Part shown: piece by piece, positions 5,431 through 36,793 of the stretch
How positions within the stretch are numbered: position 1 is the stretch's first letter
Layout: every line of letters starts with the position of its first letter
Origin: Acidobacteriota bacterium
GTDB taxonomy: Bacteria > Acidobacteriota > Terriglobia > Terriglobales > Acidobacteriaceae
Direction: 5' to 3'
DNA: 64,000 bases
NCBI GenBank assembly: GCA_013285705.1
Contig: JABDHA010000004.1
Span: 1 to 64,000 of the forward strand
Made by a program: the position numbers and the translations under genes
Notes under the pieces: model-generated
What the model was told of the DNA's origin: nothing
The model's input: only the letters and a program-made list of their open reading frames with translations
Databases searched by the model: none

Positions 5431-5537
5431 TGTCATCCCGATGCTGAACAATGAGCGGAAGGATATGTTTTTTCTGGGTACACAGGCTGCCGGCTAATAC
5501 CAGGAAAAACAGATCCTTCGCTGCGCTCAGGATGACA
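5431..5537. repeat. REP-like interspersed palindromic repeat
   Basis: Ends are complementary (TGTCATCC at 5431 and GGATGACA at 5530-5537). The right part contains the recurring core ATCCTTCGCTGCGCTCAGGATGA (given here in pieces: ATCCTTCGCT then GCGCTCAGGATGA). The same core in variant form recurs at 6364-6469, 6790-6842 and 13871-13929, always between genes. This is a dispersed non-coding repeat family of the genome. Confidence 0.7.
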
Positions 5538-5564: not shown

Positions 5565-6314
5565 CTAATACTTCACAATTTTGGCGAAGGAATGTGGGTC
5601 GAGGCTGGCTCCGCCGACGAGTGCGCCGTCGATCTCTGGCTGGTTGAGCAGGGCGGTGGCGTTGTCGGGCTTGACGCTGCCTCCGTAAAGGATGCGGATG
5701 GTGTCGGCGACGTGACGCCCGAGGCGGCGGGCGATTTCGCTGCGGATGAGTAGATGCGCGGAGGCGGCAATCTCTGGCGTGGCGGTCTTGCCAGTGCCGA
5801 TGGCCCAGACTGGCTCATAGGCTACGACGATGTTTTCCGCGTCTTCGGGGGTCACTCCGACTAATGCGAGCGATATCTGTTTGCGTAGGATTTCGTCGGT
5901 GTGGTTGGCTTCGCGCTCGGCCAGGTTTTCGCCGATGCAGACGATGGGGACGAGCTTGTGCTTGAGAGCGGTGGCGAGCTTCTTGTTGACAGTCTCGTCG
6001 GTTTCGTTGAAGTACTGGCGGCGCTCGGAGTGCCCGATGATGACGTGGGTTGCGCCGATCGCGGTGAGCATGAGCACGGAGGTCTCGCCAGTGTAGGCAC
6101 CTTCTTCAGCGAAGTGCATGTTCTGTCCGCCAATGGCGACGTTGGAACCAGCGACGGCGGGGACGATGGCACAGATCGATGTGTCCGAGGGGCAGAGGAC
6201 AATTTCGTCGCGGTCGTGGTTTTTGACCAGCGGAAGGAAGGCTTTGACGTAGTCTTCGGCCTGGGCCGGGGTTTTGTACATCTTCCAGTTGGCAGCGATG
6301 AGTGGTTTGCGCAT
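5565..6314 (-). CDS. tpiA: Triosephosphate isomerase
   Basis: Interconverts dihydroxyacetone phosphate and glyceraldehyde 3-phosphate in the cytoplasm; glycolysis and gluconeogenesis. The 249-residue length is normal for the family. Visible signatures are AANWKMYKT at the N-terminus (catalytic Lys), the catalytic His in IIGHSERR, the catalytic Glu in YEPVWAIGTGKTA, and the phosphate-binding ILYGGSV and DGALVGGASL near the end. It is the last gene of a minus-strand block that also holds gap, ridA and pgk, but it is separated from pgk by about 540 bases containing repeats and a nuclease gene, so co-transcription with pgk is doubtful. Confidence 0.97.
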   Translation of the reverse strand: MRKPLIAANWKMYKTPAQAEDYVKAFLPLVKNHDRDEIVLCPSDTSICAIVPAVAGSNVAIGGQNMHFAEEGAYTGETSVLMLTAIGATHVIIGHSERRQYFNETDETVNKKLATALKHKLVPIVCIGENLAEREANHTDEILRKQISLALVGVTPEDAENIVVAYEPVWAIGTGKTATPEIAASAHLLIRSEIARRLGRHVADTIRILYGGSVKPDNATALLNQPEIDGALVGGASLDPHSFAKIVKY

Positions 6315-6363
6315 TCTTTTTTTAATTGTCCTGGCTAAGTTTAATTTCTCTACTGCGCGCCGT

Positions 6364-6469
6364 CATTCCGAGGAGCAGAAGCGACGAAGAATCTCAGCGA
6401 ATACGGCTGTGTTGAAATCGCTGAGATTCTTCACTACGCTGCGCTCCGTTCAGAATGACGGCTTACTTT
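6364..6469. repeat. REP-like palindromic repeat, copy A (full hairpin)
   Basis: A left half (CATTCCGAGGAGCAGAAGCG...) folds on a right half (TCGCTGAGATTCTTC...CAGAATGACG). The right part, 6417-6469 (53 bases), is repeated directly at 6790-6842 with four mismatches. The stop codon and last residues of the GIY-YIG gene fall inside this copy. Confidence 0.75.
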
Positions 6470-6791
6470 CAGAGCGTTGCCTAGGTTCAAATCCTGGTAA
6501 TGGCTTTCCCCAGTCTTCTGCTAAATCGCGGTAATGCTCGTTCATTTCGCGAATTAACGCTAGTTTCTTTGCCCTCGTCCAGCCTTTGAGCGTTTTCTCT
6601 CGCGCAATGGCCGAAGTTACATATGCGTATTCTTCGTAGTACACCAAGCGATGGCAGCGATACTTTGTGGCGAAGCCGGAGCGAATGCCTGAACGATGAT
6701 CTAAGATTCGGCGATCAAGTTCGCTGGTTACGCCGATGTAAAGTACACCTCGGTCGCTTGCCAGAATGTATACCCACGCCTTCTTCTGCAT
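6450..6791 (-). CDS. GIY-YIG nuclease family protein between two direct repeats
   Basis: Small (113 residues) single-domain protein of the GIY-YIG/URI superfamily of the type found as stand-alone YhbQ-like proteins. The paired motifs are YIL at residues 8-10 (in WVYILASDRG) and YIG at 18-20 (VLYIGVTSELDRR), with the conserved arginine in the following helix and the Glu in YYEEY and AIAREKTLKGW. Nuclease action on DNA is inferred from the fold; the true substrate of such proteins is mostly unknown. The start codon lies at the edge of repeat copy B and the stop inside repeat copy A, so the last six residues (ESKPSF) are read from repeat sequence. It interrupts the tpiA-pgk neighbourhood, which suggests it arrived later than its neighbours. 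Confidence 0.87.
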   Translation of the reverse strand: MQKKAWVYILASDRGVLYIGVTSELDRRILDHRSGIRSGFATKYRCHRLVYYEEYAYVTSAIAREKTLKGWTRAKKLALIREMNEHYRDLAEDWGKPLPGFEPRQRSESKPSF

Positions 6792-6842
6792 CGTTGAGAT
6801 TCTTCACTCCGCTGTGCTTCGTTCAGAATGACGGCTTACTTT
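6790..6842. repeat. REP-like repeat, copy B (right half only)
   Basis: Direct copy of 6417-6469, 49 of 53 bases identical, starting exactly at the start codon of the GIY-YIG gene. It lacks the left half of the palindrome found in copy A. Confidence 0.75.
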
Positions 6843-6858
6843 TGCGATCTACGGCTAC

Positions 6859-8073
6859 CTATTTGTTTGTCAGCGCTTCAACACCCGGCAGCTTTTTGCC
6901 TTCAAGAAATTCAAGCGATGCGCCGCCGCCGGTTGAGATGTGGGTGATCTGCTCGGCTACTCCGGCTTGTCTTACGGCGGCTACCGAATCGCCGCCGCCG
7001 ATGATCGAGATGGCCTCGCTGTTCTTCGCGACGGCCTTGGCGATCTTGGTGGTGCCGTTGGCGAAGGCCGGCATTTCAAAGACGCCCATAGGGCCGTTCC
7101 AGACGATGGTGCGAGCCTCGGCGATTTCTTCTGCGAACAGCTCGACTGTTTTCGGGCCGATGTCGAGGGCCATCCAATCGGCGGGGAAGGGGCCGTCGCC
7201 GGAGAGGATCTGCGTCTTCGCGTCGGGCGCGAACTTGTCGGCGAGAATGTGATCGAGGGGCAGCAGGAAGCGCACGCCTTTGGCTTCGGCTTTCGCAAGC
7301 GCTTCTTTGGCCACTTCAATTTTGTCGGCTTCGACGAGAGATTTGCCGACTTCCTGTCCATTAGCCTTGAGGAAGGTGTAGGCCATGCCGCCGCCGATGA
7401 GCAGGGCGTCGACTTTGCCGAGCAGGTTGTCGATGACTTCGATCTTGTCGGAGACTTTGGCGCCGCCGAGAATCGCGATGAAGGGCTTGGCCGGTTCGGT
7501 GAGCGCTTTGCCCATGTATTGCAGCTCTTTTTCCATGAGCAGACCAGCGGCGGATTGCTTGACGAAATGCGTGATGCCTTCGGTCGATGCATGGGCGCGA
7601 TGGGCGCTGCCGAAGGCGTCGTTTACGTAGAGCTCGCACAGGGACGCGAGCTCTTTTGCGAAGTTTGCATCGTTGGCTTCTTCGGCCGCGTGGAAACGCA
7701 GGTTCTCAAGCAGCAGCACCTGGCCGGATTCGAGCTGACGCGAAAGCTCGGTGGCGATCTCGCCGACGCAATCGGGCGAGAAGGCGACGTTGACGCTTTC
7801 GCCAAGATGATGATCGAGCAGCACGCGCAGGCGGTCGACCACGGGACGGAAGCTGTACTTCGGATTCGGCTTGCCCTTGGGGCGGCCGAGGTGCGAGGCG
7901 AGAATCAGCTTCGCCTTGTGGCGCAGCGCGTATTCAATGGTGGGCAGCGTTTCGCGGATGCGCGTGTCGTCAGTGATCTCGCGGCCATCCTCGGTAAGCG
8001 GAACGTTGAAGTCGACACGCATGAATACGTGCTTGTGCTGGAGATCAAGATCGCGGATCGATAGTTTCGACAT
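6859..8073 (-). CDS. pgk: Phosphoglycerate kinase
   Basis: Transfers phosphate between 1,3-bisphosphoglycerate and ADP in the cytoplasm. Start chosen at the ATG at 8073, giving [26 protein letters not shown]; the frame is open 16 codons further upstream (to 8121) but that stretch is translated from a hairpin repeat and does not look like protein. Family landmarks are RVDFNVPL, the substrate-binding [17 protein letters not shown], the hinge [11 protein letters not shown] and the nucleotide-binding GGGDSVAAV near the C-terminus. Length of about 404 residues is normal. It follows gap and ridA on the same strand, with about 135 bases of hairpin-rich DNA before it. Confidence 0.96.
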
Positions 8074-8104
8074 CTTCAAAAACTTTCTGAGGCGATTTCC
8101 CTCA

Positions 8105-8158
8105 GGGGCGAAAGCCCCCATTGATTCTTGAATTGATTGCGAGAATTAAAATTCTCGC
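8105..8158. repeat. Short hairpin cluster upstream of pgk
   Basis: Two adjacent hairpins: GGGGC-GAAA-GCCCC at 8105-8118 and GCGAGAATT-AA-AATTCTCGC at 8139-8158. Just beyond lies AAAAACGGCCC, which recurs at the other side of ridA next to a similar hairpin. Likely a dispersed repeat; a role in mRNA processing between ridA and pgk is possible. Confidence 0.55.
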
Positions 8159-13870: not shown

Positions 13871-13929
13871 GCTGTCGTTCTGAGGGGGTTAGGGAAAAGC
13901 AGATTCTTCGCTTCGCTCAGAATGACAGC
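13871..13929. repeat. REP-like palindromic repeat
   Basis: Ends GCTGTCGTTCTGAG and CTCAGAATGACAGC pair with one mismatch; the middle contains AGATTCTTCGCTTCGCTCAG. Same family as the repeats at 5431, 6364 and 6790. It lies between two convergent genes. Confidence 0.75.
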
Positions 13930-36760: not shown

Positions 36761-36793
36761 GGCCGTCATCCTGATTCAGTCAGGATGACGGCC
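36761..36793. terminator. Strong hairpin downstream of lon
   Basis: 14-bp perfect stem GGCCGTCATCCTGA / TCAGGATGACGGCC with loop TTCAG, 22 bases after the lon stop. No T-run on either strand. Its GTCATCCTGA sequence resembles the ends of the genome's REP-like repeats. Confidence 0.55.

Follow-up and report, generated by a model that had tools for sequence, protein, structure and literature searches.

Results

Anatomy of the tpiA-pgk cassette

The window analysed here, a stretch of 64,000 nucleotides from an Acidobacteriota bacterium, carries a small GIY-YIG nuclease gene enclosed by repeats in the interval between the host genes tpiA and pgk. The features considered below are:

5432-5536: separate head-to-head repeat dimer without an open reading frame (ORF), of a related subfamily; candidate non-autonomous derivative
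5565-6314, minus strand: tpiA, flanking host gene
6361-6833: whole cassette (473 bp, within the tpiA-pgk interval), delimited by the left CGTC tag and, in inverted orientation, the right one
6361-6460: dimer of head-to-head repeats on the left, made of a plus unit (6361-~6402) and a minus unit (~6417-6460); long hairpin
6417-6469: left copy of the 53-bp direct repeat; inner, minus-oriented unit, overlapping the 3' end of the ORF
6450-6791, minus strand: GIY-YIG nuclease ORF, 113 aa
6790-6842: 53-bp repeat, right copy; unit in minus orientation with its tag outward at 6833
6859-8121, minus strand: pgk, flanking host gene; likely start codon at 8073
13882-13926, minus strand: single repeat unit GTCATTCTGAGCGAAGCGAAGAATCT, of a related subfamily

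The preliminary description reported a 53-bp repeat at 6417-6469 and 6790-6842 with four mismatches, and the two copies are indeed identical at 49 of 53 positions. The ORF is also placed between them as claimed, its start codon (6789-6791) abutting the right copy and its last codons and stop lying inside the left one. The direct repeat is part of a larger structure: the left copy is the inner unit of a palindromic dimer, whose two units hold GTCATTC in inverted orientation (6362 on the plus strand, 6459 on the minus strand). The order within the cassette is plus unit, minus unit, ORF, minus unit; the CGTC tags lie at 6361, 6460 and 6833. With CGTC at 6361 and its complement ending at 6833, the outer ends are inverted, and the cassette is defined as 6361-6833. 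What is diagnostic is the inverted orientation of the terminal units, which are often dimers, and not a plain direct repeat. The left inverted pair folds into a 99-nt hairpin (-28.9 kcal/mol, z -6.2), while the single repeat unit of the window forms no stable hairpin, a stable fold being found in the dimer only. The repeat core had also been described as occurring alone at 5431 and 13871; the latter copy is a single unit, at 13926 on the minus strand, but the former is part of the head-to-head dimer 5432-5536. The exact subfamily flanking the ORF has two copies in its own genome (59% complete), both at this cassette. Elsewhere in the window, a 25-bp perfect palindrome (GTCATCCTGATTCAGTCAGGATGAC, 36765-36789) resembles the single fused repeat of an ORF-less Sphingobium site.

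The GIY-YIG protein

The 113-aa protein matches the Pfam GIY-YIG domain (PF01541, 56.3 bits) and nothing else in that search, and no NCBIfam model matched it; its likeness to UPF0213/YhbQ is confined to a distant similarity to the structures 1ywl and 1zg2. It carries the catalytic positions Y8, Y18, R28, H32, E65 and N84, of which Y18, R28, E65 and N84 are invariant in 32 sequences; across phyla, the catalytic positions are invariant or nearly so. The GIY-YIG proteins compared also share the conserved motifs REKxxKGWxRxKK and NPxWxDL. The closest folds to its AlphaFold model (pLDDT 85.9) are UPF0213 proteins, followed by Slx1, for which the matches are weak (TM about 0.5, E 0.02). The likeness of the model to Slx1, a nuclease of branched DNA, suggests that cutting of repetitive extragenic palindrome (REP) hairpins or cruciforms would be its most natural activity.

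Association of the gene with repeats within the bacterial family

A small GIY-YIG gene is present in 126 of 200 genomes of the family, in one to eight copies, some with in-frame stop codons. The repeat was looked for beside other GIY-YIG genes, as the preliminary description had proposed, and was found both in relatives and at the second gene of the same genome (C13, with one in-frame TAG), which lies between direct repeats of another subfamily. For family-wide counts, the motif [CT]GTCAT[TC]C[CT]GA was required on both sides of the ORF within 300 bp, the units having the form YGTCAT...ATGACR. It flanked 31 of 40 GIY-YIG loci in a first sample and 45 of 58 loci fetched regardless of their flanks, a further 4 having it on one side and 9 lacking it on both. 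In 29 of the 45 loci, the outermost tags face outward, and motif density is 2.75 per kb within 250 bp of the ORF versus about 0.1 per kb beyond 500 bp. In the same DNA, both flanks carry the motif at only 5 of 378 other ORFs and at none of 161 small ORFs (<200 aa). None of 30 Y1/RAYT loci from the same genomes, taken as the best-scoring and not as a random sample, has it on both sides, and only 2 of 17 UvrC loci have any motif.

Among 86 candidates, the best match of the left repeat is its own right partner in 51 of 86 loci, and each gene therefore travels, or is homogenised, with its own subfamily. The ends of the ORF overlap the repeats in many loci. The G070 and G119 cassettes are flanked by an amplified subfamily of 29 and 34 copies, respectively (18 of them perfect in G119), which has no copies in three genomes of other genera and one match with three mismatches in a fourth. 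Compared with the two copies of the window's subfamily, these numbers indicate a turnover of subfamilies while the gene position stays fixed. G119 has the most perfect copies, yet its tpiA-pgk ORF is disrupted; other copies of the gene are present in this genome. In four genomes (loci L057, L061, L066 and L068), the GIY-YIG frame runs stop-free through the repeat into an enoyl-CoA hydratase/isomerase gene, giving frames of ~330-390 aa that possibly reflect repeat-mediated fusion.

Filled, deleted and empty sites

A comparison of tpiA-pgk spacing in relatives, also proposed in the preliminary description, bore out the idea of a repeat-carried nuclease cassette, as did the second gene of the same genome and the repeats beside other GIY-YIG genes in relatives. 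The cassette is present in G000, G070 and G119. In G142, the interval of 194 bp consists of two repeats with about the first 17 ORF codons between them, and this allele is a direct intermediate between the cassette and an ORF-less dimer, the form found in G005. The interval is 61 bp with no repeat in G017, and almost all other relatives have no repeat motif there.

Presence and absence at one site is also seen outside the family. In Azospirillum, the sufB-sufC interval holds a dimer-ORF-dimer arrangement in A. lipoferum 4B and is empty in four congeners, the exact insertion boundary not being definable because the intergenic DNA is too diverged; no target-site duplication could be defined at the sites compared. 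The A. lipoferum cassette, on plasmid AZO_p3, thus lies within an Fe-S assembly operon. At the fnrL locus of Sphingobium plasmids, seven carry the cassette, two (TomTYG72 and TomTYG65) have neither cassette nor REP, and TomTYG64 and TomTYG74 carry, at the left junction used by the cassette, one palindromic REP on its own. A remnant in S. medicae was considered as a clean internal deletion and rejected, being truncated by another rearrangement.

One cassette also occurs in two congeneric species at sites that are non-orthologous. It lies at C13 in G000 and at C260 in G142, with 84.5% identity over 536 bp plus a 76-bp repeat, and the stretches compared show no likeness outside the cassette and its repeat; it therefore moved, or was transferred, as one unit. 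In relatives, only a diverged right flank of C13 was found, with the gene absent.

Other phyla and CGTC-type REPs

Named genomes searched by alignment yielded 80 loci, of which 76 were scored for the match between left and right flanks. A score of at least 30, the cut-off, was reached by 49 of these 76 loci in about 13 phyla (as taken from record titles), versus 1 of 244 shifted control pairs, which refutes a chance origin of the repeats. The phyla with matching flanks are Acidobacteriota, Actinomycetota, Bacillota, Bacteroidota, Chloroflexota, Cyanobacteria, Desulfobacterota, Eremiobacterota, Nitrospinota, Patescibacteria, Planctomycetota, Pseudomonadota and Verrucomicrobiota. Meiothermus, Adlercreutzia and some other lineages have the gene without a flanking repeat.

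The repeats are probably members of a known superfamily, the CGTC-type REPs, which the preliminary description had not named. The window units CGTCATTC at 6361 and 6833 carry the CGTC-type terminal tag, and CGTC or its TGTC variant is part of the family-wide motif; CCTC variants are found at the GIY-YIG locus of Sinorhizobium sp. C101. The high copy number and head-to-head dimers of the superfamily are likewise present: in pattern searches of the window's own genome, the broader motif gave 121 matches versus 4 for a reversed-pattern control, and dimers lie at 5432-5536 and 6361-6460. The hairpins of the Terriglobia units are weaker than those of classical CGTC REPs. Textbook CGTC REPs flank GIY-YIG genes in A. 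lipoferum, Sinorhizobium meliloti, Novosphingobium aromaticivorans and Neisseria. In records of the plasmid collection, units with stems of at least 8 bp flank the gene in A. lipoferum (CGTCATCCCCGCGAAGGCGGGGATCCA), S. meliloti (CGTCATCCTCGGGCTTGACCCGAGGATCCA) and Neisseria (CGTCATTCCCGCGCAGGCGGGAATCTAGA), the last of which we take to be dRS3. A. lipoferum, S. meliloti and Neisseriae are listed as CGTC-positive by Di Nocera et al. (2013; PMC3733652), whose equation of Neisseria CGTC-1 with dRS3 supports that assignment. According to the same study, CGTC elements are mainly head-to-head dimers and apparently have no dedicated transposase; GIY-YIG is absent from its text. Our literature search found no paper joining GIY-YIG with REP, REPIN, dRS3 or CGTC repeats in this sense.

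Nine of 10 loci from the plasmid collection, most of them alphaproteobacterial, with Neisseria besides, have units with an 8-9 bp stem starting from a paired A-T and a loop of 4-5 nt, the exception being the Planktothrix locus. On plasmid p1 of Planktothrix agardhii, the repeat-flanked gene lies in a defence region, with an MmeI restriction-modification gene on one side and DISARM drmA on the other. A GIY-YIG gene from Chroococcidiopsidaceae (L179) lies between direct repeats that do not look CGTC-like (ATGGGTGCTGAATGATAGG...).

Copy-number covariation and its exceptions

Median repeats per Mb, uncorrected for phylogeny, were 4.8, 12.1, 17.3, 21.2 and 34.3 in genomes with 0, 1, 2, 3-4 and 5 or more GIY-YIG genes. 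The partial rank correlation of repeats with GIY-YIG number given Y1 was 0.44, versus 0.16 with Y1 number given GIY-YIG (both phylogeny-uncorrected). Among 21 genomes without any Y1 gene, carriers of GIY-YIG had a median of 70 repeat copies versus about 6.5 in non-carriers (p 2e-4, again with no phylogenetic correction). About a quarter of the genomes lacking a small GIY-YIG gene (20 of 74) are nonetheless rich in repeats. A simple model predicts hidden divergent GIY-YIG genes in them, and this prediction failed: a Pfam search of these genomes returned essentially UvrC only. Repeats can thus persist, or spread, without a GIY-YIG gene, and these genomes require the assumption that the enzyme was lost once the repeats had expanded, or that a different mobiliser exists. 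In one of them (G032, a complete genome searched for sandwiched ORFs), the repeats are mostly single. DUF559 nucleases, considered as an alternative partner, are nearly absent.

Discussion

Our analysis showed that a small GIY-YIG gene is packaged between matching repeat copies in many phyla. Its product is on this account a strong candidate for the enzyme behind the spread of CGTC-type repeats, which are one of two major classes of repeats in bacteria. We think it probable that the cassette is a REPtron-like unit, whose nuclease would recognise and cut its own CGTC/TGTC repeats and so drive their copying. In a role like that proposed for RAYT with the GTAG REPs, this GIY-YIG family is most likely the dedicated nuclease of the CGTC-type REPs, the two enzymes being unrelated. 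We also lean, if with less assurance, towards the broader proposal that a stand-alone GIY-YIG nuclease, and not a transposase, mobilises CGTC-type repeats, including Neisseria dRS3, with the dimers as non-autonomous members; this would be a new class of autonomous prokaryotic element found in a dozen or more phyla.

In the mechanism that we propose, the product of a small GIY-YIG gene enclosed in CGTC/TGTC-tagged palindromic repeats of its own subfamily would cut or nick cognate repeats extruded as hairpins or cruciforms, upon which repair or replication restart would copy the repeat, the dimer or the cassette elsewhere. Copying of the whole cassette would be rare, and ORF-less units and head-to-head dimers would often be copied in trans. 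The ORF-less dimers would be internal-deletion derivatives comparable to MITEs or REPINs, and homing into existing repeats would be a special case allowed by the Sphingobium alleles.

Homing might instead be the whole story, the nuclease gene being a parasite of REPs that cleaves repeats and copies itself in through recombination, with the repeat halves as homology, the repeats themselves spreading by other means. The single REP of TomTYG64 and TomTYG74 at the junction where seven plasmids hold the cassette, the ORF-less dimer of G005 at tpiA-pgk and the match between left and right halves would all fit such a parasite. However, the single-REP allele would likewise arise by deletion between two ACCCCGGG copies of the cassette, no repeat stands at the equivalent of the filled site in the Azospirillum congeners or in G017, and repeat number tracks GIY-YIG number also where Y1 transposases are lacking; we consider this explanation unlikely. 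A little less likely again is that the gene is a passenger, which hitchhikes on repeats moved by RAYT/Y1 or another enzyme or simply lands in repeat-rich intergenic DNA. The repeat-rich genomes without the gene and the weak residual Y1 correlation (partial 0.16) are in keeping with this idea, but it is hard to reconcile with the lack of repeats on both sides of any of 30 Y1 loci, for which RAYT/Y1 was rejected as the mobiliser, or of 161 small ORFs, with the repeat richness of GIY-YIG carriers that have no Y1 gene, and with the near absence of DUF559. Lastly, it is very improbable that the protein serves the host by resolving REP hairpins or cruciforms to protect replication, with the adjacent repeats acting as regulatory or terminator elements: its fold resembles that of Slx1 and ORF ends overlap the repeats at many loci, but its patchy distribution, one to eight copies per genome with in-frame stop codons in several, and its unrelated sites with empty or deleted orthologous counterparts look like those of a selfish unit and not of a housekeeping gene.

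If the REPtron-like reading is correct, it would explain what many proteins do that carry no annotation beyond 'GIY-YIG nuclease family protein', and would add GIY-YIG as a further nuclease fold mobilising bacterial repeats; to our knowledge, this fold was not known to do so. CGTC-type REPs such as Neisseria dRS3 and the Rickettsia RPEs lacked a dedicated transposase in their 2013 description, and a specific small enzyme family is now a candidate for that role. The cognate repeat-enzyme pairs come from cultured species, so that a direct bench test is possible.

Among known systems, the single-REP allele of Sphingobium would be compatible with a GIY-YIG homing endonuclease, which cuts an ORF-less allele and recombines into it, or with a change in the opposite direction. 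Slx1, the second-best fold, cuts branched DNA, an activity plausible on REP cruciforms, but the 113-aa cassette protein has neither its RING domain nor an Slx4 partner. UPF0213/YhbQ proteins share the single GIY-YIG domain and provide the closest solved structures (1zg2 and 1ywl), but are only 25-28% identical to the cassette protein, which has the REKxxKGWxRxKK and NPxWxDL motifs. The flanking repeats resemble the CGTC REPs, which include Neisseria dRS3 and Rickettsia RPE-4 and RPE-6 (PMC3733652), in their CGTC, TGTC or CCTC tag and their dimers, and the plasmid-collection units also in the AT pair at the base of the stem; a CCA tail is common to CGTC REPs and the alphaproteobacterial flanking units, whereas the Terriglobia units have a shorter, imperfect stem. 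In organisation, the cassette is like RAYT (TnpA-REP) and its GTAG REPs and REPINs, where a low-copy small nuclease gene is also flanked by palindromic repeats abundant in the genome, divergent gene copies in one genome have different repeat subfamilies, and ORF-less inverted dimers occur. RAYT is an HUH Y1 tyrosine transposase acting with GTAG repeats and the cassette enzyme is a GIY-YIG protein with CGTC/TGTC repeats; it is not a RAYT, because the HUH transposase and the GTAG tag are absent. One trait of the RAYT/REPtron arrangement, a nuclease gene flanked by the REPs of its genome, is found at 45 of 58 GIY-YIG loci.
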